Assembly: GCA_015488535.1 (NCBI GenBank)
Contig: WFNP01000008.1
Coordinates: forward strand, 1 to 32,533
Direction: 5' to 3'
Source: Nitratifractor sp.
GTDB lineage: Bacteria; Campylobacterota; Campylobacteria; Campylobacterales; Sulfurovaceae
Length of the DNA: 32,533 nt
In this document: positions 6,324-23,790 of the stretch, piece by piece
Numbering within the stretch: the stretch's first letter is position 1
Layout: the number at the start of each line of letters is the position of its first letter
Translations under genes and position numbers: made by a program
The notes under the pieces: model-generated
What the model was told of the DNA's origin: nothing
The model's database searches: none
The model's input: only the letters and a program-made list of their open reading frames with translations

Positions 6324-9300
6324 TTAGAGAATTTTATTTTTGACTTCTGACATAAAGTTGGTTATATTTATTACATCAGCACACAAATCTGTATCTTTAA
6401 CATCATTTCGTATCAAAAGATACGGTTTTATACCCATCTCATCTATGCCCTCTATAATCATACACTCTTCATCACCAAGCAGACCATAATCTATCAATAC
6501 ATAATCTATATCACCCTCATCAATAGCCTCTATCAACTCATCTTCACTACCTACAACTTTAGAGTGTATTCCCAATCTTTCCAGAACTTTTACAAAATTC
6601 TTAGAGAGCATTTTAGCTTTGTTAAATAATACTACTTCAAGCTTTTTGTCAGATACACTGTCTGATATCTTACTCTCTTTTTCAGATGATTGAGGCTTCT
6701 CTTCTTTTGGTTCTTCTTTGATAGATTCAGTATTGACTACCACTCTTTCAGGCTCTTGCAGAGGCTTTGTATCTATTATTTTAGAATCATCATTCTCCTC
6801 TTTGTGAGTATGATGTATAGATTTGTTATATGAAGATATAAGATTTTTCAACTCTGGGATATTTATAGGTTTTGAAATATAGTTATCCATCCCGGCTTCC
6901 ATATATTTTTCTCTGTCACCTGTTAATGCATTTGCCGTCAATGCAATAATTGGAATATGATTGAGATGATTTACCTCTTCATAATGCAATATTTCACTTG
7001 TAGCTTCCAATCCATTCATCACCGGCATCTGTATATCCATAAAAATCAAATCATAATCATTCTGCTTTCTCAAATCAAATGCCTCTTGACCATTTGATGC
7101 AAGAGTTACATCTATTCCAAACTTTTCAAGTGTGGTTCTTATCAGCTTTTGGTTGATAGGATTATCCTCTGCCACCAAAATCTTCATCTCCTCAAAAGGC
7201 TTTTCTGTCTCTGTCTTGACTTCTTCTATCTTTTTAGGACTTCTATAACTTTCAAATGCTCTGTATGTCTTGGAGAAATTGACAGGCTTGTATATAATTT
7301 TTTGTAATCTATCTCTTACACTCTCTAACTCTTCTTTGGATTCACCTGTAGTTATTAATACTATTCTAGTATCCAAAGAGAAATACTGTTTTAATGTAGA
7401 AACATCTTTGATAAACATATAATCTATAAAGAGTATTTTAGGTGGTTTTTCTTTCAATTCAAACAAATCATCATTATATACAGGTGAAAATTTTGCACCC
7501 AGATACTCTACATATTTTTGTAAATTTTTATCACATGTTCTCATCTGTTGCTTACGATTTGTAAGAAGCAAACCGGTATCTACATCTGAGAAATCTTCCA
7601 AATTCTTCTCATTGTCTTCACCTTTTTGAAGTGTCAGTGTGAAGAAAAATGTTGAACCTTCTCCTGGCGTACTGTCAATATCCAGTTTACCACCCATAAG
7701 CTCTACAAGTTTACTAGAAATTGCCAATCCAAGTCCGGTACCACCATACTTTCTGCTAGTTCCTGCATCTGCCTGGGCAAATGCTTCAAAAATTTTACCT
7801 TTTTGCTCTTCTGTAATACCGATACCTGTATCTTTGACAGCAAAATAGACTGTCGCATCTACTGAACTCTCTTGTTGCATCTCTATAATAACATCAACTT
7901 CACCATTTTGACTTGTGAATTTGATAGCATTACTAATAAGGTTTACTATGACCTGAGATATTTTTGTAGGGTCTCCTATCAATGTCTTGGGTAATGCCGG
8001 ATCAACAAATACACTAAATTCTATATTTTTCTGAGCAGCTTTTGCACCATATGACTCTACTGCATCTTCAAATTTCTCTATTGCATTAAATGGAATACTC
8101 TCAAGCTCAATCTTGTCGGCATTGATTTTGGAAAGATCCAAAATATCATTAACAATCGCAAGAAGGTTATCAGAACTGCTTTCAATAACAGATATAAATT
8201 CAGCCTGATCAGGTGTCAAATTTGTGCTTTTTAATAATTGTGTAAATCCTACGATACCATTAAGAGGTGTTCTGATTTCATGTGACATATTTGCCAAAAA
8301 AAGGTCTTTTGCCTGGTTTGCCTCTTTAATAGTCTCAGCTAACAATCTATAAATGGATGCCATATCTCTTTTGCCTACAGCATTTAACAACTCTTTTTTT
8401 CTTTGGGGACTCAAATCTATCTCAATATTTTTAAGTGCATCTTCAAGAATTTTAGACTCTTTACTTACATGATAGAAAAATACTATCAATATAATATCTA
8501 CCAAGAGCAATAGTCCAGCACCGGAGACAAATAGTATCCATTGATTATTCAAGCTCTCCATTTTACTTGAAATGATACCTGTTAGTGAAGTATCTATTAT
8601 CTTTTCTGCACTCTTGAGTTTATCAAGTCGTGCATCTGTCACAGAATACCACTGTTTCAGTGTTATGGGATAAGTTCCATTCATTATTCCGGCAATAAAT
8701 GATTCTCTATAACGATTTATAGAGTTCTCAAATTTTTCAATATCCAGAATTTTTCTTAATTTATGCTCAATTCCATCATTATGTACTTCTGAAACCAAAG
8801 GAAGCACATCATTTGCTATCAAAGAATCCCACAGCTTTAAATCAGCATCTTGCAAACTCTTTGAACTGCCGATAAAAAATCCTATAAGACTTCTTTCAAG
8901 CTCTTGAGTGTTATACAGATTTTGTAATTTGTGACTATACTCCAAACTCTCAGAGATATCTTTTCGCTTAAGAGCTTTTATAATTTTTTCCTGGATAAGA
9001 GAGAGTCTATTTAATATTTTATCCTGAAACTCATTATTGAATATATCAATATAATCTTGACTTATAGTCTCTATTTTTGTTCTGACTGCTTTAAGATTAT
9101 TTTTTATATTGTTTATATTTTTTACTTCATCTCTATATTCACTGTATTTACTTAAATTATTGGAAAATTTCTGTAGCTCATTATCTACCAATTCTCTGTG
9201 TTTCTTAAGCTTGGATAGTGTTACTGCAGAAGAACCACTAATAAACATAGAGCTTAATTTTCTCTCTTTACCTATCAATATAGAGAGTTTGTTACTCTCA

Positions 9301-9446
9301 TTTATAAGGTCAAATCTCTTTAGTTCTCCTCTTTGGAGATTATATTTCTGAAAAGAGTTAAAGCCAAAGTATCCCAATGCACCTACTATTGCCAATATCA
9401 CTATAATAAGGAGTGCAAGCAATATTTTCTGGTTGTTTTTTCTCAA
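6324..9446 (-). CDS. NIT-domain hybrid sensor histidine kinase with three receiver-like domains
   Basis: Membrane sensor kinase of 1040 residues. Order of parts: membrane helix 7-29; an extracytoplasmic all-helical region 35-300 resembling the nitrate/nitrite-sensing NIT domain (KERKLSSMF near 60-68, a D-N-E-L-Q helix near 88-93, a terminal W-Y-S-V-T-D segment at 266-271); second membrane helix 303-325; HisKA with phosphoacceptor H389 ([11 protein letters not shown]); ATPase domain with N box 502-510, DTGIGI 539-544 and GGTGLGL 568-574. A degenerate receiver follows at about 625-735 (D675, K720, N-terminal acidic pair missing). Next is a canonical receiver 755-870 (D804, K859), a charged linker 880-930, then another divergent receiver-like domain 935-1040 (D986). 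There is no Hpt domain. Translation starts at TTG after a GGGG-containing site. It is the last gene of a four-gene operon, 15 bases after the third PilJ-like gene. NIT assignment is by pattern; the ligand is inferred. Confidence 0.88.
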
Positions 9447-9461
9447 TTTAGACCCCTTTAA

Positions 9462-10223
9462 TTATTGGTTTTTACTATGATAAATGACAAATAAATCAGT
9501 TATTTTTTCCAATTTATCATCTGTCAATACCATAATATTGGATACAAACAGTTTATTGTTTTTGTCTATAAGTGCTTTATTTGTATTCCAATACCCAATC
9601 AACTCTTTTCTACTTTTCAAAAGAGTTTCAGGATAGCTCTTATAATTTTGGATTTCAGCCAATTTTTCATCTGCACCTTTGATAGACTCTTGCATCTGTT
9701 TTTTAATCAAAGGAGATGATAATCCCAAGCCCTCTGCCATGTAATACTTGAGTACTCTTTCAAGATAAAAAATAAAGTTTTTACTGTCTAAAAACATCTT
9801 GTCACTGTCTGAATATACATATTTGTATTGTTTGGCTATATTGTTTGCACCCTCTAAAAGTGTTTCACTGTAATCTAGCATCTGAAGAGCTATATCTTTA
9901 CTAGGTTTCTTTGCAAGCAGTTTTTCCAATTCATTTTTACTGTATGTAAGAAACTCCAACATATCTTTGGTATCCTGATTATTCGTAGTGATAGCAATAG
10001 TCCGTATATCAGAGACAAGCTTATCAAGGTCTTTATCCAAATCCCTCTTCAAATATATCTTTTGGGGATTGGCATAAAAATAGAGATACTTTGCCACCAA
10101 CTCCTGGCTAAGATATCTGATATGCTCTGTAGCTTCAAGTATATTTACATCTGCTCTTGTAGATGCATTTATACTCTGTAGAGAAAATATCATAAATAAG
10201 ACTATCAGAGTGACTTTTTTCAT
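9462..10223 (-). CDS. Secreted PilJ/NarX-like sensor-domain protein, divergent third paralogue
   Basis: A 253-residue secreted helical protein with signal peptide (residues 1-20, ending INAS). It aligns by eye with the two genes upstream over the whole length. It shares the SETLLEGANNIAKQY segment (119-133; SESMLEGSQYI in its neighbour) and a C-terminal helical region. The two P-box-like motifs of its paralogues are eroded: the first reads ILEATEHIRYLSQELVAKY (28-46), lacking the GKQRM core, and the second only FIFYLERVLKYYMAEGLGL. It may have lost ligand binding or changed ligand. The second of two adjacent ATGs (10223) has the better spacing from AGGAG. It sits 12 bases after the second paralogue and 15 before the kinase. 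Confidence 0.75.
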   Translation of the reverse strand: MKKVTLIVLFMIFSLQSINASTRADVNILEATEHIRYLSQELVAKYLYFYANPQKIYLKRDLDKDLDKLVSDIRTIAITTNNQDTKDMLEFLTYSKNELEKLLAKKPSKDIALQMLDYSETLLEGANNIAKQYKYVYSDSDKMFLDSKNFIFYLERVLKYYMAEGLGLSSPLIKKQMQESIKGADEKLAEIQNYKSYPETLLKSRKELIGYWNTNKALIDKNNKLFVSNIMVLTDDKLEKITDLFVIYHSKNQ

Positions 10224-10235
10224 CATATCTCCTAA

Positions 10236-11027
10236 TTAATGCTCATAAAGTTTTACATACATTTTAACAACAGAATCCATCTTTCTGGTAATATCATTTG
10301 TGGTATTATAAACGATAAGAGGCAATCCGCCTTTTTCTATATTTAGATAAAATTTATGCACTATTTTCCACAGTTTGTTTACCTGATGAAGCTCTTCGTT
10401 TATAGCCGGTGTATTATCTTTGTAGCTCATAATGAACTGATTGTTTTTACTAAACTGCTCTACAGCCTTTCTGGTTTGTTCTACAGTGTTTTTATCTTTG
10501 ATACCCAACTGATATGCTATATAATATTTGGCTATCCTCTGAGCCAACATTCTTTGCTGTCCGGCTTTGTCTATTACTTCAGCACTTTTAAGATTATATT
10601 TCTTCTTCAAACTATCTACAATATATTGACTACCCTCAAGCATGGATTCACTAAGATCAAGCAGTAACTGGGCATTATTCAGATTGAATGGCTTTTTGAC
10701 TATACCTTTAAGCTCATCTTCACTCATTTGAACAAAGGCTATCAGATTTTTAATCTCTTCATCATTGATATCTTTATTTAAAATATCTATATTTTTACTA
10801 AACTCCTGCAATGACTTTTGCAACTCTCTTGAAGCCTTTTCCTGGGCTACACCTTTGCCTTTGTAGAGATAATCTTTAGCTATTCGTTGAGAGAGCATTC
10901 TCTGCTTTCCTGCAATATTGATAATATCCTGCACTTTGTCATTGACTCCTCTTCCGGCAGATACGAAGCCTACAAACATCAACGATACTGCTACCACCTT
11001 CACCATACTTTTCAAAAAAAACTGCAT
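10236..11027 (-). CDS. Secreted protein with two PilJ/NarX-like P-box motifs
   Basis: A 263-residue protein with a signal peptide (about 1-24) and no further membrane helix, so probably periplasmic. It holds two half-repeats, each opening with a P-box-like motif: INIAGKQRMLSQRIAKDY (36-53) and DKAGQQRMLAQRIAKYY (153-169). This motif is characteristic of the PilJ-type N-terminal domain of pilus chemotaxis transducers and of the periplasmic domain of NarX-type nitrate sensors, but here no signalling domain is attached. I place the start at ATG 11027, because AAGGAG precedes it by six bases; an upstream in-frame ATG at 11060 would overlap the previous gene. Middle gene of three paralogues, 10 bases after the first. 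A ligand such as nitrate is inferred, not shown. Confidence 0.85.
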   Translation of the reverse strand: MQFFLKSMVKVVAVSLMFVGFVSAGRGVNDKVQDIINIAGKQRMLSQRIAKDYLYKGKGVAQEKASRELQKSLQEFSKNIDILNKDINDEEIKNLIAFVQMSEDELKGIVKKPFNLNNAQLLLDLSESMLEGSQYIVDSLKKKYNLKSAEVIDKAGQQRMLAQRIAKYYIAYQLGIKDKNTVEQTRKAVEQFSKNNQFIMSYKDNTPAINEELHQVNKLWKIVHKFYLNIEKGGLPLIVYNTTNDITRKMDSVVKMYVKLYEH

Positions 11028-11037
11028 CTTTTTCTCC

Positions 11038-11820
11038 TTATTGTATTTTTTGTGACGCATACAACTCTGTCACTTTGTCCATATTTTTGAGTATCTCATT
11101 TGATTTGTTATAAATCAAAGACGGAATAAAATTACTTGAAGATTTATTCATTATTCTAAAGAAAGAGTAATCCTTTTCAACTCTATTGAGAAGATTGTTA
11201 ATCTCTTTACTGTTCAAGTCAGAAGCTTTAAGAGTTTTTAATGAATCTTCAAACAGTTTCATAGCCTCATCCATCTTCTTTTTAAATTTTTTATCCTCTA
11301 TACCCCACACTTTCAGCATATACAAAGATGCCATTCTCTGAGACAACATTCTTTGTCTGCCTGAGATATTTATTATTTTACCTGACTTTTTACCACCTTT
11401 TACTGAAAACAGTTTGGTAGTATCATCAGCTACTTTCAGTAATGTATCTAATTTATACTGAAGTTTACTGGCATTATCTTTTGTCGGTTTAGCCAAAAGT
11501 AGAGTTTTGATACTATCATATATATTTTTTTGCTTTTTTATACTCTTTTTTATATTGGAGTCTTTACTAAATTTATCCAAAGCATTGAGATGCTCTTCAA
11601 ACTCTTTCATAGTATTGTTTAAATCTTTGTCAGGATTGCCAAATCTAACTCCAAGACCAAGCATACCATAATCTTTTAGCATCCTTTGAGTAAACATTCT
11701 TTGTTTACCGGCTATATTTATAGCTTGTTGGATGTTAGTGATTTCAAAAGCATTTACACTTCCGCTTAATAGCATAATAAACAGTAAAGTATATACTGTT
11801 TTTAGCATTTTGATACTCAA
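11038..11820 (-). CDS. Secreted protein with two PilJ/NarX-like P-box motifs, first of the operon
   Basis: A 260-residue probable periplasmic protein with a signal peptide (to about residue 24) and two P-box-like half-repeats: INIAGKQRMFTQRMLKDY (34-51) and INISGRQRMLSQRMASLY (150-167). Each half continues as long amphipathic helices, as expected for a four-helix sensor bundle. There is no transmitter domain. The preferred start is TTG at 11820, with AGGAGGGG five bases upstream; ATG at 11808 is also possible, and a longer reading from 11865 lacks such a site. It leads the operon that ends with the NIT-domain kinase, so the three secreted proteins and the kinase probably act together. Confidence 0.83.
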   Translation of the reverse strand: MSIKMLKTVYTLLFIMLLSGSVNAFEITNIQQAINIAGKQRMFTQRMLKDYGMLGLGVRFGNPDKDLNNTMKEFEEHLNALDKFSKDSNIKKSIKKQKNIYDSIKTLLLAKPTKDNASKLQYKLDTLLKVADDTTKLFSVKGGKKSGKIINISGRQRMLSQRMASLYMLKVWGIEDKKFKKKMDEAMKLFEDSLKTLKASDLNSKEINNLLNRVEKDYSFFRIMNKSSSNFIPSLIYNKSNEILKNMDKVTELYASQKIQ

Positions 11821-11854
11821 ATACCCCTCCTCTTTAACTGGTTTGAAATACAAT

Positions 11855-11860
11855 ACTATA
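11855..11860 (-). promoter_or_regulatory. Candidate -10 for the sensor operon
   Basis: TATAGT on the - strand, about 35 bases before the TTG start at 11820. Several other AT-rich hexamers lie in this divergent gap (11821-11981), so the exact element is uncertain. Confidence 0.35.
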
Positions 11861-11956
11861 TACACAGATTTGTATATTCTATAATGACATACTTTATCTT
11901 AATTACCTTTGAATATCAATATAATACTTTAAAACATCTTTATATTATAAGTATAG

Positions 11957-14900: not shown

Positions 14901-16769
14901 CTATTGTGATACATTTGTATCCAACCCCAACTCTTTGGCTTCTTTGATATCTTTCAATTTCTGCAACTCCTCTCTGACCTTTTGCAAAGGATGATGCTTA
15001 AAGTATCCATTGTAGTAGAGCCATTTATATATCTTTGCCGCAATAGGTCCTGCACTGCTTCCACCATGACCACCATGCTCCATCAATACTGTAATTACAT
15101 ATTCAGGGTGTTTATATGGTGCATATGTAGTAATCCATGCATGAGATTTTTTGAAATATGCCAAGTCATTCTCTTTGACTCTTTTTTTGATATCCTGAGG
15201 AATTGAAACTACCTGTGCTGTTCCTGTCTTACCGGCTACTATAATAGGCAGTTTGCTCATTGTCTTGTATGCAGTTCCTCTCCTGTCATTACATACATCA
15301 TACATACCCTCTCTGATAGTATTGAAATGCTTTGGGTTAAACCATATTCTTTTTAATACAGGTTTTACCTTTTTACCTGCCACCTCTTTGGCAAGCATAG
15401 GTGTAGGCAGTTTGCCTGTAGCTATAAATGCTGTATATCTGGCTATCTGCATAGGTGTTACATTATCATACCCCTGCCCTATTGCACATATTACAGTTTC
15501 ACCTTTATACCATGGCAGATTGTATCTTTTTCTTTTCCATGCTTTGTTTGGAATGATACCTCTGTATTCCCTTGGCAAATCTATCCCTGTCTTCACACCA
15601 AGACCTATCTGATGCAGTGTTTTGGATATATTGTCTATACCTATTTTCAAACTCTTGTCATAATAATATACATCACAACTCTCTCTTATAGATTTTCTCA
15701 AATCTACATCACCATGCCCCCATCTTGACCAGCATCTAAATTTGTGTTTACTCTTGTCTATAGTGATATAGCCTTTACAAAATTCATGCTCATCAAGCAC
15801 TCCATGCCCAAATCTCGATGTAGCAAGTGCAACTCCCATTTTAATTACTGAGCCTGGAGGATATACTGCATTGATGAATTTATTAGTAAATGGGTGTCCT
15901 AAATTGTTTTGTAATGCTCTCCAATTCTTGACACTGATACCTCCCACAAAGAGATTTGGATTGAAGCTTGGGTTACTTACAGCTGCCAATACTTTGCCAT
16001 CTACTGTCATCACTACTACAACGGCAGCTCTTTTATCAAGTATCTTGAATATATACTGTTGCAAATCCATATCAAGATTTAGTTTTATATTACGGTTGCT
16101 TATCGGTTCTACTTTTTTAATGACTTTCAACTCTTTGTTTCGTGCATTAACCTTGCTGATTACATATCCTAGCTCCCCCTCAAGCACCTTGTTATAATAA
16201 AGCTCCAATCCACTTTTGCCGGTTTTGCCGACTATCTCTACTACTTTGTCTTTTTTATTCTCTTTTCTGTTTGAGCGTCCTACATATCCTACAATATGAG
16301 CTGCATATCCACCAAATGGATAGTATCTTTTTGTCTCCGTATCTATATGTATATACTGGTTTGGCTCCAATTGAGAGTAGTATCTAATCATATCGTTATA
16401 TGCTATAAAATCTATTACTTTGATAAATTTATAGTTATATGGTGAATTGTATCTTTTATATACTTTTTGCATAACTGTTTTATTGATATCAGGAAAATAG
16501 CTCTTTAATAAATCTATGACTTCGGATAGTTTTTTCTTTTTCATATGAGGAGCTATCGATACGGAAAAGCCCAGCTTGTTTACTGCAAGATAGTTGCCTT
16601 TACTGTCAAATATCTCTCCTCTTACCGGCTTGATATATGTTTTTCTCTCTATATTCTCTTTTGCAAGTTTTTCATAGTAGTAATTGGATTTGATACTGAT
16701 ATGATAGAGTCTGACTACCAGCAAACCCCACACCAGTATAAAAATAAACCAAAGCAATCTGTATCTCAT
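14901..16769 (-). CDS. mrdA: Penicillin-binding protein 2 (elongation transpeptidase)
   Basis: Class B PBP that cross-links peptidoglycan during cell elongation, working with RodA/MreC/MreD. One N-terminal membrane anchor (5-24) is followed by the PBP dimerisation domain beginning near RGEIFDSKGN. The transpeptidase domain has active serine S307 in SVIK (307-310), SCD at 364-366 in the SxN position, and KTG at 514-516. The 622-residue length is normal. Asp at the third position of SxN is common in PBP2. The start ATG overlaps the mreD-like stop by four bases. A 111-base gap separates its end from the hemH sORF. Confidence 0.96.
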   Translation of the reverse strand: MRYRLLWFIFILVWGLLVVRLYHISIKSNYYYEKLAKENIERKTYIKPVRGEIFDSKGNYLAVNKLGFSVSIAPHMKKKKLSEVIDLLKSYFPDINKTVMQKVYKRYNSPYNYKFIKVIDFIAYNDMIRYYSQLEPNQYIHIDTETKRYYPFGGYAAHIVGYVGRSNRKENKKDKVVEIVGKTGKSGLELYYNKVLEGELGYVISKVNARNKELKVIKKVEPISNRNIKLNLDMDLQQYIFKILDKRAAVVVVMTVDGKVLAAVSNPSFNPNLFVGGISVKNWRALQNNLGHPFTNKFINAVYPPGSVIKMGVALATSRFGHGVLDEHEFCKGYITIDKSKHKFRCWSRWGHGDVDLRKSIRESCDVYYYDKSLKIGIDNISKTLHQIGLGVKTGIDLPREYRGIIPNKAWKRKRYNLPWYKGETVICAIGQGYDNVTPMQIARYTAFIATGKLPTPMLAKEVAGKKVKPVLKRIWFNPKHFNTIREGMYDVCNDRRGTAYKTMSKLPIIVAGKTGTAQVVSIPQDIKKRVKENDLAYFKKSHAWITTYAPYKHPEYVITVLMEHGGHGGSSAGPIAAKIYKWLYYNGYFKHHPLQKVREELQKLKDIKEAKELGLDTNVSQ

Positions 16770-17212
16770 ATTATAACCGCCATTACTATATCCATCACCA
16801 GAGAAAATACAAGATTTGAATCCAAATCTATACTGAATGTAGAGAATATAAAGTCATACAACAGAATAAATCCCAGATAAAACAAATCTATGAATATTAC
16901 TGAAATGACAGCTATACATCTGCGACACCGCTTCAAAAATATCAATCTATGATATATACTCAGATAGTAAACCAATACAGAAAAAAATGACAACATCATA
17001 GGCAAAGATAAATTTATCTCCAAATTCAACAGATAAAGAAGAGGCATAATAATATATGTAAACCCTTCTCCCTCCAATCCTCTGATTATGAGATATCCTG
17101 CAATTCCTATCATCAACGGCAAAGTTACATGTATGGATATCATTGTGGGGTAATACAGTACAAACAGTATCATAAATCCCCACTTCAGAAGATTTTTCAA
17201 TACACTCTTCAC
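16766..17212 (-). CDS. mreD: MreD-like rod-shape membrane protein
   Basis: A 148-residue, very hydrophobic protein with about five membrane segments (10-28, 33-45, 52-66, 74-88, 100-118) and no charged domain. MreD belongs to the elongasome and normally lies beside mreC or mrdA. Here it directly precedes mrdA with a four-base overlap, which is the main support for the call, since MreD sequences are poorly conserved. Translation appears to start at GTG, with GGAG located inside the end of the upstream acetyltransferase gene. Confidence 0.7.
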   Translation of the reverse strand: MKSVLKNLLKWGFMILFVLYYPTMISIHVTLPLMIGIAGYLIIRGLEGEGFTYIIMPLLYLLNLEINLSLPMMLSFFSVLVYYLSIYHRLIFLKRCRRCIAVISVIFIDLFYLGFILLYDFIFSTFSIDLDSNLVFSLVMDIVMAVII

Positions 17213-20399: not shown

Positions 20400-21164
20400 T
20401 TATTCAGGGCGGATAATAAATCCACCTTCAACTGGGACTTTATCTATAAAGTCTCTAGCCTCCTCTTCGGTATCAAATCCTTTTACCCATACTCTATATA
20501 GAGGTGCACCACCTTCGTTAAATTGGCGAATAATAACATTTTTAGGCGGACATACTAAAGAGGCATATTTTCTCTTGTAAATCTCAGCACCCTCTATGTG
20601 TCTAAATGCACCAACTTGCACTGCAAAATTTGTAAGTCTAACTTTTGGAAGAGATTTACCTCTTTCTTTAGCTAAATCATAAACTTTACCAGCAAATCCA
20701 ACCACAGTGAGTTTTACTCTAGCTGTGCCTTTTTTATCTATGCCTATCTTTTTACCTGCTGCATAAGAGCAGTCAAGTATTCTGCTTTTTACAAACGGAC
20801 CTCTGTCATTGATACGCACAATAGCACTTTTGCCATTTTCAAGATTTTCGACTTTGACCATAGTATCCATAGGCCATGTTTTGTGAGCAGCAGTCATACC
20901 ATACATATTATATCTCTCACCGCTACTAGTCATTTTGCCATGAAAATTGGGTCCATACCAGCTCGATACACCTCGCATGGTATCCCCTACTCTTACATAT
21001 GTAGGCTGATATGTTTTGCCCCTGACTGTATAGCACCTCATCGTAGCTGCACGCCTGGCATCACTGGTATATCCTCTGTAGTGAGGCTCTTTTTTACTAG
21101 AACACCCTGCAACAAATAATACAAACAATAATATTAGTGTCATAAAATAATAAATCTTTTTCAT
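20400..21164 (-). CDS. rlpA: RlpA-like septal lipoprotein (DPBB and SPOR domains)
   Basis: A 254-residue lipoprotein with lipobox VAGC (C21). The double-psi beta-barrel (about 64-160) carries VSSWYG, SSGERYNMYGMTAAH and RINDRGPF. The C-terminal SPOR domain (about 183-254) begins NFAVQVGAF and should bind denuded glycan at division sites. RlpA proteins are lytic transglycosylases or septal ring proteins. E83, H94 and D120 match positions expected for the active site, but the position three after E83 is Asn (N86), where an Asp is expected from studied enzymes. No Shine-Dalgarno is present; a TATAAT lies exactly six bases before ATG. It heads the operon running to mrdA. Confidence 0.9.
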   Translation of the reverse strand: MKKIYYFMTLILLFVLFVAGCSSKKEPHYRGYTSDARRAATMRCYTVRGKTYQPTYVRVGDTMRGVSSWYGPNFHGKMTSSGERYNMYGMTAAHKTWPMDTMVKVENLENGKSAIVRINDRGPFVKSRILDCSYAAGKKIGIDKKGTARVKLTVVGFAGKVYDLAKERGKSLPKVRLTNFAVQVGAFRHIEGAEIYKRKYASLVCPPKNVIIRQFNEGGAPLYRVWVKGFDTEEEARDFIDKVPVEGGFIIRPE

Positions 21165-21519
21165 AATTAAATTATAGCTAAAGTGGTGTAATTACTATTT
21201 AATAATTGACTTGCATACAAAAAATATATTGAACAACATAGCATATGAGGAAGAATTTAAACTCTATATTTTAGATACAGAACTTTAGTCCTATATCTAA
21301 AGTAAATTGCATTAAATCAATGAGAGTATTGTTTAAGCCACAAAATACGAAAACACTAATTTTGATATATAAGTAATCAAAGCAAATAACCAATTAGTCA
21401 TAGCATTAACTTAATTTTGTGCCTTGTATATATTAATTACCATTTTTTTTAATTATTTCTAAAGTTTTTTCATAAAATCATCTATTTCTACGCTTGGATA
21501 AGTCTTTAATAACAATTTT
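21165..21519. other. AT-rich intergenic region with possible gene remnants
   Basis: This 355-base gap between rlpA and the DUF350 gene holds no complete gene I can support. It contains the rlpA -10. It also has an 8-bp inverted repeat (21270-21277 with 21294-21301). Two short coding-like open stretches end in stops: + strand 21178-21288, ending YEEEFKLYILDTEL, and - strand just after the DUF350 stop, containing TYPSVEIDDFMKKL. Both could be 3' ends of decayed genes or chance in AT-rich DNA. Confidence 0.4.
21171..21176 (-). promoter_or_regulatory. TATAAT -10 six bases before rlpA ATG (predicted leaderless)
   Basis: A perfect TATAAT on the - strand, separated from the rlpA ATG by six bases. 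With usual -10 geometry transcription would begin at or within a base or two of the ATG. There is no Shine-Dalgarno and no good -35. Confidence 0.55.
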
Positions 21520-21732
21520 TCAGTGTATTGCTGAAGCTACAATTATCCCCATTGCTATTACCATTGAAGCTACCACTATAGCTACGGCATTATTACCCTC
21601 TTGAACTACTTTTTTAGTCACTGAAAATGGAGTGATTTTTTCTACCACATACATTGCTACAATAAAAAGAATAAATCCCAACACACTATATACAACCGTA
21701 GATACCAAATACTGTAAACCCAACTCACTCAT
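21520..21732 (-). CDS. DUF350 membrane protein
   Basis: A 70-residue inner-membrane protein with two membrane helices (about 9-30 and 46-68) and the family pattern GNNAVAIVVASMVIAMGIIVASA at the second helix. The biochemical role of DUF350 is not known; members often lie with DUF4178 genes in putative membrane-maintenance operons, as here. An AGGAGG site precedes ATG by six bases. It is the last gene of the cassette starting at 23778, 40 bases after the 54-aa secreted protein gene. Confidence 0.87.
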   Translation of the reverse strand: MSELGLQYLVSTVVYSVLGFILFIVAMYVVEKITPFSVTKKVVQEGNNAVAIVVASMVIAMGIIVASAIH

Positions 21733-21772
21733 CTTTTACCTCCTGTAATTTGTTTAAATTATACTACTAATA

Positions 21773-21937
21773 TCATTTTCCATAACTATAACCTCCTCTT
21801 GAGTGGGAACTGCCTACACTGCCACCTCTTATACTGGTATATGATTCTCTGCTTTGAGGTGTGCCACTATCATGCAGTGTCATATATCCGGCCCAAATTG
21901 TAGCTACTGTATAAAAAAGAAGTATTGCTATCTTCAT
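21773..21937 (-). CDS. Small secreted Gly/Ser-rich protein (54 aa)
   Basis: This short frame lies between the larger DUF4178 gene and the DUF350 gene on the same strand. Residues 1-17 are a signal peptide or membrane anchor (MKIAILLFYTVATIWAG). The remainder is polar and rich in Ser, Gly and Tyr, ending RGGSVGSSHSRGGYSYGK. GAGG lies eight bases before ATG, and the start is three bases after the preceding stop, so coupling is likely. I recognise no family. The gene position, ribosome binding site, signal-like start and non-random composition support it as real. Confidence 0.7.
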   Translation of the reverse strand: MKIAILLFYTVATIWAGYMTLHDSGTPQSRESYTSIRGGSVGSSHSRGGYSYGK

Positions 21938-21940
21938 CTT

Positions 21941-23170
21941 CTAATCCTCATCATCACTATCTCCCCATAAAACTCCCTTATTCTTGAGATAAGCAAAAGG
22001 ATAAGCCAACATTCCTAACAAAGACAAAACAGCAAGAATGATAAAATATCTGCTTCTCAATACTCCATCTATAAGCTCCAACTTAATCAAATCTCCCCTT
22101 TTATATCCGGCAACTACTATATTTAATATATACTTCCCACTCTTTTTGACGGGAATATATATATCTTCTACTCTGCTTCCTTCAGTCCAATACTCCCCAT
22201 CATCATATCCGTGATAATAGGATATCTCAAAACTCTTTTGATATACAATATTTTTACTGCTGTCATACAAACTCAATGAAAAATCTCTATATGTATTATT
22301 TAAAGTAGTAGTTATATATACTTCTGTCAAATATGGAGCTGTTTTAGATATTGTTATCTCTTTTTGATAATTTGCTGACTTGATATAATCATACAGTATC
22401 AAATTGCCTGATGCTTTTGTATGCAACATATATATTGCAATTATTGAAATAATAAAAAATACAAAAGCTACTTTGCTGATATATGATGCCATAGGAGCTT
22501 TAAAAGGCTTTAAAGCATTAAATCCTTCCTCTTTTGGGGTGCCTTTGATACCGAAACTTTCATATATATCTTTTGATGGAATATACTCCATCTTGTAATA
22601 CTCTATCTCATCTTCGCTATGCTCATAAGCTATGCCATATGGAGGTGAAATAGCCTCTATGCTGTATATACTATCTCCTTGTTTGGCTAAATATGTCAGT
22701 GAGCCTCCGGCACTGACTACATATGAGCGATACCCCTCATATACTCTGTATTTCCTGCCTTCAAATTTGAAACTGTCACCTTTGTCCATCTGCCAGATTT
22801 TTGCTACCGGAGTTTTTCTTATACGGCGAGAGAATACAAAAACTCCATTTTCATAGGTAAGCCAGGCATAACCATATATAGGAGAGTGAAGAGCAAAATC
22901 TATCCACTCAGCCACTCTACTTTTTGGTGATGAGGCATATCCGACATATCCTATTACAGTAAATTTGATATGATTGATATCCCCTTGCATTCCAAGCTCA
23001 AGAGGAAATAGTTTAGAGGTGCTTTTTCTAAATTTGGAAACTATTTTATAATCATCAGTCAAATCAATTACACTGCCACAATACTCACAGACAACACTTT
23101 GGATATTTCTACCGCCAAGCACATTTAGAGGAGCTCCGCAGTTTGGACACTTGATAGTAAAGTGCTTCAT
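21941..23170 (-). CDS. DUF4178 protein with zinc ribbon and two membrane helices
   Basis: A 409-residue protein. A zinc ribbon opens it (C8, C11, C28, C31), followed by a DUF4178-like beta domain (about 60-190; FTVIGYVGY, EYLYEN-type strands such as YAWLTYENGVFVFSR). Next come membrane helix 232-250, an extracytoplasmic beta-rich region (about 260-370) and membrane helix 374-394 with an acidic tail. The function is unknown; the layout suggests a cytosolic sensor or adaptor linked to an outside domain. Its ATG overlaps the stop of the smaller DUF4178 gene by four bases. It is cotranscribed with the 54-aa secreted protein and DUF350. Confidence 0.8.
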   Translation of the reverse strand: MKHFTIKCPNCGAPLNVLGGRNIQSVVCEYCGSVIDLTDDYKIVSKFRKSTSKLFPLELGMQGDINHIKFTVIGYVGYASSPKSRVAEWIDFALHSPIYGYAWLTYENGVFVFSRRIRKTPVAKIWQMDKGDSFKFEGRKYRVYEGYRSYVVSAGGSLTYLAKQGDSIYSIEAISPPYGIAYEHSEDEIEYYKMEYIPSKDIYESFGIKGTPKEEGFNALKPFKAPMASYISKVAFVFFIISIIAIYMLHTKASGNLILYDYIKSANYQKEITISKTAPYLTEVYITTTLNNTYRDFSLSLYDSSKNIVYQKSFEISYYHGYDDGEYWTEGSRVEDIYIPVKKSGKYILNIVVAGYKRGDLIKLELIDGVLRSRYFIILAVLSLLGMLAYPFAYLKNKGVLWGDSDDED

Positions 23171-23778
23171 CTTTTTACCCTTATCTCATAAGGGTCTATC
23201 CATTTGCCACTATATAGATATGCCCCCTCTTCATCAAACTCTACTGTCATCATAGAGCCGTCACTTCTACTTAGATGAGCATATTTGTATTTTTTTCCAG
23301 GAAGTATAAGCTCAGGTATCTCCCCTTCAAAGCCTTCGCACTCACTTTCACCAACTTCTGTAACAATCCACTCGCCAAACTCTTTACCAAGAGTAAAATC
23401 ATCTGGATTTTTGGTAGATAGTGAGTAATCTATCTGCTTTTCCAGAATATAATCTCCGTCATCCACACTTATCCAGTATCCTCCTTTGCCAGATATACAC
23501 CACCACTCATCCCATGCATATATACCGGTTTTATATCGTATATGCCCAACAGGGGTATATTCAACACCCTCTATCTCTATAGGAATTTGCAAGCTCAAAA
23601 GTGAAGGCTCATCACTAAGCACTGATGATTTACCCATCACTTTGACAGCATCATCTTCCAAAAATACATTGGAGCCACACGATGGACATCTGATTAGTTT
23701 GCTATATTTAAAATATATCGGCAATGGATACCCACATGATGGGCATTGGAATTTTTTATCACTGTTTAAGTTGTTCAT
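23167..23778 (-). CDS. DUF4178 protein with N-terminal zinc ribbon
   Basis: A 203-residue soluble protein. The zinc ribbon has C12, C15, C31 and C34 (CPSCG twice). The following domain resembles DUF4178: PIEIEGVEYTPVGHIRYK, WDEWWCISGKGGYWISVDDGDY, then a KYAHLSRSDGSMMTVEFDEEG strand group. It is a paralogue of the next gene, without membrane helices. It leads the cassette. There is no Shine-Dalgarno; TATAAT sits six bases before ATG, as in rlpA. The function is not known. Confidence 0.8.
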   Translation of the reverse strand: MNNLNSDKKFQCPSCGYPLPIYFKYSKLIRCPSCGSNVFLEDDAVKVMGKSSVLSDEPSLLSLQIPIEIEGVEYTPVGHIRYKTGIYAWDEWWCISGKGGYWISVDDGDYILEKQIDYSLSTKNPDDFTLGKEFGEWIVTEVGESECEGFEGEIPELILPGKKYKYAHLSRSDGSMMTVEFDEEGAYLYSGKWIDPYEIRVKR

Positions 23779-23784
23779 AAATTC

Positions 23785-23790
23785 ATTATA
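23785..23790 (-). promoter_or_regulatory. TATAAT -10 six bases before the DUF4178 gene (predicted leaderless)
   Basis: A perfect TATAAT on the - strand, six bases before the ATG at 23778, with a -35-like TTTAGA 17 bases further upstream. The geometry is the same as at rlpA and predicts transcription starting at the ATG. Confidence 0.6.

Follow-up and report, generated by a model that had tools for sequence, protein, structure and literature searches.

Leaderless mRNAs in Campylobacterota and other bacteria

The closest described parallels come from Campylobacter jejuni and Helicobacter pylori, whose leaderless mRNAs were mapped by dRNA-seq. In C. jejuni 19 leaders of under 10 nt were recovered; in 12 of these the leader has zero length, transcription beginning with the start codon itself, and all of the short leaders preceded an ATG, lacked a Shine-Dalgarno (SD) sequence and carried a TAnAaT box (PMC3847290). 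Porcelli et al. 2013 also searched 42 genomes for gnTAnaAT-N5-9-ATG, and cj1247c/hp0820, which always lies upstream of uvrC, was the only gene with a leaderless prediction in all of the Epsilonproteobacteria that possess it; mutY is leaderless in C. jejuni, and leaderless promoters are described as coming and going as operons rearrange (PMC3847290). The main text of that paper does not name rlpA, dnaG or ribA. A Ribo-seq analysis of C. jejuni supported initiation at the start site, or close to it, for six predicted genes, found one to be leadered and left 14 unclear (PMC11955535), so that leaderless predictions made from sequence sometimes fail.

Similar arrangements have been described further afield. 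Zheng et al. 2011 surveyed 953 bacterial genomes for TA-led genes, in which a TA-like signal about 10-12 bp before the translation start is taken to mark a leaderless gene, and the main text contains neither 'Campylobacter' nor 'Epsilonproteobacteria' (PMC3160421). In Deinococcus-Thermus a -10 motif directly before the open reading frame (ORF) is reported to have been experimentally validated as driving leaderless genes, although that is a different phylum and the motif there is TANNNT (PMC12340547).

Two start regions with TATAAT six bases before the ATG

The window analysed here is the whole stretch of 32,533 nucleotides of contig WFNP01000008.1 from Nitratifractor sp. (assembly GCA_015488535.1). 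The original prediction was that two of its genes, rlpA and the first DUF4178 gene, have TATAAT six bases before the ATG and no SD, and the geometry is exact at both sites. On the minus strand the start region of rlpA is TATAATTTAATTATG at 21176-21162, which divides as TTTAGC-TATAAT-TTAATT-ATG (ATG from 21164), and that of the first DUF4178 gene is TATAATGAATTTATG at 23790-23776, which divides as TTCG-TATAAT-GAATTT-ATG (ATG from 23778). The features concerned are as follows.

20400..21164, minus strand: rlpA, lipoprotein with DPBB and SPOR domains (Pfam, NCBIfam); predicted mRNA 5' end at 21164
21165..21170, minus strand: 6-nt stretch TTAATT between box and rlpA ATG, without SD
21171..21176, minus strand: candidate -10 box TATAAT of rlpA, in the context TTTAGC-TATAAT
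21941..23170, minus strand: second gene of the DUF4178 cluster, with an ATGA overlap with the first and weak similarity to it
23167..23778, minus strand: first DUF4178 gene (Pfam DUF4178, 4.8e-12); predicted mRNA 5' end at 23778
23779..23784, minus strand: 6-nt stretch GAATTT between box and DUF4178 ATG, without SD
23785..23790, minus strand: TATAAT, candidate -10 box before the first DUF4178 gene and part of a TTTAGA-N17-TATAAT match (10/12)

In both genes no in-frame start lies between the ATG and the stop preceding it, and none of the motifs AGGA, GGAG, GAGG, AAGG or AGGG was found 4-17 nt upstream of either. They share with the leaderless genes of Campylobacterota the ATG start codon, the lack of an SD and a TAnAaT-type box 5-9 nt before the start codon, the distance being six at both. 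The G at -14 of gnTAnaAT is present in rlpA (GCTATAAT), whereas the DUF4178 gene (CGTATAAT) has its G at -13. Most other genes of the window had been described as having a clear SD, and one is indeed found in 26 of the 33 retained window ORFs that encode 80 aa or more, a generous figure in that the SD also guided start choice.

Both sites are probably members of a small leaderless-promoter class known in Campylobacterota and found across many relatives. Each TATAAT would be a sigma-70-type -10 box fused to coding sequence, from which RNA polymerase would begin 7 nt downstream, at the A of the ATG; the resulting leaderless mRNA would have to be translated from its 5'-terminal AUG without an SD. 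Membership would be gained and lost gene by gene, with DUF4178 a recurrent member and rlpA one acquired in this lineage only. The resemblance to C. jejuni and H. pylori extends to a species-variable membership and to a member upstream of uvrC, with the difference that start sites there were mapped by dRNA-seq and here are predicted from sequence (PMC3847290). The arrangement is ordinary in kind and real in substance, with rlpA and the DUF4178 gene as two new predicted members. Points that stand against the leaderless reading include a raw pattern count at chance level, the unconserved geometry of rlpA, weak -10-like hexamers further upstream of both genes, possible read-through into the DUF4178 gene, an SD in some DUF4178 orthologs, conserved columns outside the box in the gene before uvrC and an SD status that is not clean in every gene of the class.

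Frequency of the arrangement

Genome-wide, TATAAT-N6-ATG occurs at 26 + 28 = 54 sites, against 45 in a backward control and a mean of 56 per spacing over N0-25 (1462/26), and in the window alone there are 3 sites against 1.32 expected, a number reached in 18 of 100 shuffles; the third of these (11935-11949) opens a 2-codon ORF only. The raw count is therefore at chance, as it would be if both sites were accidents of a 35% GC genome and neither drove leaderless expression. A scan count equal to chance had been named as grounds for refutation, and taken literally the raw total gives just that; it has little force as a test, however, since 47 of the 54 sites head no ORF of at least 100 aa. When all 54 were read in context and the filter kept only ORFs of 100 aa or more that had neither an in-frame start further upstream nor a longer ORF overlapping them, seven ORF heads remained against about 1.4 expected (P 7e-4), and five (P 0.015) without the two window genes, the expectation being scaled from a 311-kb sample in which the start-picking rule differed slightly. 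The seven are rlpA, the DUF4178 gene, dnaG, ribA, trpA, a nucleotidyltransferase (NTP_transf_2) gene and the gene immediately preceding uvrC, which encodes 153 aa. Two of the seven lie in this one window (P 0.006), the window having been chosen for them.

The excess is also seen when gene starts are taken as the reference, these being picked by a rule favouring ATG. In the 311-kb sample, which includes the window, 206 of the 273 ORFs with 100 aa or more have an SD (again a generous count, the SD having guided start choice), and TATAAT stands at a spacing of six (k=6) four times compared with four times over 17 other spacings between k=1 and k=18; it is found at k=0 in two genes. In 400 kb of a relative, G034, with 343 genes, the figures are three at k=6 compared with seven over 17 other spacings, and for the two genomes combined the Poisson P is 5e-6, rising to 6e-4 when the two window genes are left out. 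A second, broader peak of TATAAT about 26-33 nt before starts in the sample and in G034 fits leadered mRNAs. At ORF heads spacing 6 remains in small but real excess, and since the DUF4178 spacing is moreover retained in several species despite different spacer bases, we consider it very unlikely that chance accounts for both sites.

Conservation of the spacing among orthologs

Ortholog upstreams were compared for up to 30 loci per gene family among the matches listed, more genomes having had a match; this genome was included, identical upstreams were counted once, and starts were chosen blind to the -10 box, favouring an ATG near the expected start. Loci that yielded no start by this rule were dropped (L192 for the gene upstream of uvrC, L021 for rlpA, and L109, L112 and L124 for DUF4178), as were those cut by a contig end (L218 for ribA, L237 for dnaG) and 16 DUF4178 loci from outside Campylobacterota.

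Conservation is strongest for the gene before uvrC, which belongs to no known family by profile search and matches cj1247c/hp0820 by position only. In this genome, where it serves as a positive control, it reads GCTATAAT-N6-ATG, and among the matches listed TATAAT lies at exactly k=6 in 28 of 29 distinct upstreams, this genome's included, the chosen start being ATG in 29/29 and an SD present in 0/29. Columns -12 to -7 carry 1.8-2.0 bits and the spacer columns 0-0.8 bits, while columns -20, -15 and -14, outside the box, are conserved too at 1.6 bits. The box is also held at a near-constant distance in dnaG (k=6 in 16 and k=7 in 4, together 20 of 29 distinct upstreams among the matches listed) and in ribA (12 and 6, together 18 of 29). 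Several ribA orthologs and this genome's dnaG, in which AGGA stands just before the box, carry both box and SD labels, the SD label being a loose one under which GGGG counts. The mutY gene of G034 has TATAAT-N6-ATG, its mutY score of 274.4 falling just below the curated cut-off of 286.5.

For DUF4178 a box is found at k=6 in 7 of the 27 Campylobacterota upstreams among the matches listed (six TATAAT and one TACAAT, own genome included) and TATAAT at k=8 in one; 12 of the 27 have an SD by motif. Four of the seven (L107, L108, L115 and L119) have similar N-termini with differing spacers and are probably close relatives. By contrast with these genes, rlpA has TATAAT at k=6 in this genome only, 1 of 29 distinct upstreams among the matches listed, and one more (L016) could be added if TAAAAT counts, that ATG lying 6 nt downstream of another ATG with an SD. 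On this evidence the DUF4178 gene is a fairly well-supported predicted leaderless gene and rlpA a plausible, lineage-specific one. The proposal of a leaderless class with +1 at the A of the ATG gains support by inference, spacing 6 standing out and being kept in the orthologs of several genes. Membership of trpA is doubtful, as only this genome's upstream, out of 28 distinct ones among the matches listed, has the k=6 box and a second TATAAT lies 14 nt from the ATG.

A real class may thus hide behind a raw pattern count and be exposed by ortholog spacing, which names dnaG, ribA and DUF4178 as members with conserved spacing and offers a sequence-only route to candidate leaderless genes where the start-site maps found cover two pathogens, C. 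jejuni and H. pylori. A more elaborate proposal, which we think improbable, is that a conserved core (the gene upstream of uvrC, dnaG, ribA and DUF4178, with mutY in at least one relative) is kept by selection at a fixed distance from -10 box to ATG, its proteins thereby still being made when SD-dependent initiation is impaired, lineages adding single genes such as rlpA.

The rlpA gene

RlpA is identified by DPBB_1 (Pfam, 9.5e-25), SPOR (6e-10) and TIGR00413 (NCBIfam, 1.1e-44), and a signal peptide and lipobox are visible in the translation from the first in-frame start. It had been placed at the head of an operon, which is likely: the nearest same-strand gene seen before it, a DUF350 gene, ends about 355 nt upstream, and a search for a terminator between the two found none. 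Judging from their translations, the same-strand genes after rlpA look like hisB, a KDO8P-type phosphatase, lptC, lptA and engB.

It is possible to read the rlpA TATAAT as a chance hexamer, with only the DUF4178 promoter truly leaderless and the rlpA mRNA leadered, SD-less and begun further upstream. The k=6 box is confined to this genome's upstream among the 29 distinct ones in the matches listed, the start in G003, closest by RlpA identity among those matches (72%), is preceded by an SD-like GGGG, and chance alone would give about 1.4 ORF heads per spacing across the genome. However, no second TATAAT occurs in 21165-21730, the 566 nt before the gene, where the nearest further TANAAT is TAAAAT at k=103. 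The box also carries the -14 G of the gnTAnaAT consensus as published, and rlpA lacks the SD that a leadered mRNA would normally carry. We consider this explanation unlikely. Weak -10-like hexamers occur further upstream of both rlpA and the DUF4178 gene, and the search for an upstream promoter for rlpA turned up such weaker hexamers only.

The surroundings of rlpA differ from those in relatives. In 29 relatives the longest same-strand frame ending near rlpA is, by eye, presumably LysM-type in 17 and TatD-type in 10; the exceptions are locus L002 of G003, where the frame looks like a tRNA-ribosyltransferase, and L029, where its type is unclear by eye. On the preferred reading, that of a leaderless rlpA, the gene may be a relocated one with its own fused promoter, in accord with the published view of operon rearrangement (PMC3847290).

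A different arrangement was observed outside the window, where ATATTAAAAAATG lies ahead of rlpA in 11 of 30 rlpA loci among the matches listed (L003-L011, L013 and L014). TANAAT is found 12 nt before its ATG in 7 of the 11; that ATG is in frame with rlpA in 4 and opens a short ORF of 5-25 codons in 7, the stop overlapping the rlpA ATG in L004, L007 and L008. A short-leader, translated upstream ORF before rlpA is possible at these loci.

The DUF4178 cluster and the envelope theme

The DUF4178 gene was also put forward as an operon head, of which we are less sure than for rlpA. It starts 47 nt downstream of a same-strand gene and a search for a terminator in between found none, so that read-through into it is possible. 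The second gene of the cluster matches the first over residues 10-116 (E 1.4e-6) and has no Pfam family at 1e-3, and a DUF350 gene lies further along. Within the literature searched DUF4178 was named in one other paper only, which places it in an operon linked to the phage-shock response of the envelope (PMC11237479). The window segment 21523-23778 (minus strand), with DUF4178, the weakly similar second gene and DUF350, resembles such phage-shock-associated operons. By eye, the DUF4178 gene at L113 (Thiotrichaceae), one of the 16 loci from outside Campylobacterota, has TTTTTGC-TATACT-N6-ATG, from which a TATAAT-type-N6-ATG arrangement before DUF4178 may extend to gammaproteobacteria.

The two genes had been linked through envelope functions, as a hint of a leaderless class that could respond to the state of ribosomes or initiation factors. 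The rlpA product is an envelope protein and DUF4178 has the phage-shock association (PMC11237479), but no evident envelope gene is found among the five others with the k=6 geometry, namely dnaG, ribA, trpA, the nucleotidyltransferase gene and the gene before uvrC (the last being of no known family), and the rlpA arrangement is unconserved in relatives among the matches listed. The envelope theme was rejected on the identity of these other members, and a regulon of this kind is extremely unlikely.

Other observations in the window

On the minus strand at 16767-16775, a gene that is penicillin-binding-protein-like by translation (start 16769) lacks an SD, and TATAAT immediately adjoins its ATG on the upstream side. 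Its ATGA overlap with the preceding gene makes coupling, not a leaderless start, likely. Two adjacent minus-strand genes at 10236-11865 each contain, in translation, two copies of a segment like 'INIAGKQRMLSQR', and they are followed by a third gene (9462-10226) and then by a sensor-kinase-like gene with receiver-like parts (6324-9446), again as judged from the translations.
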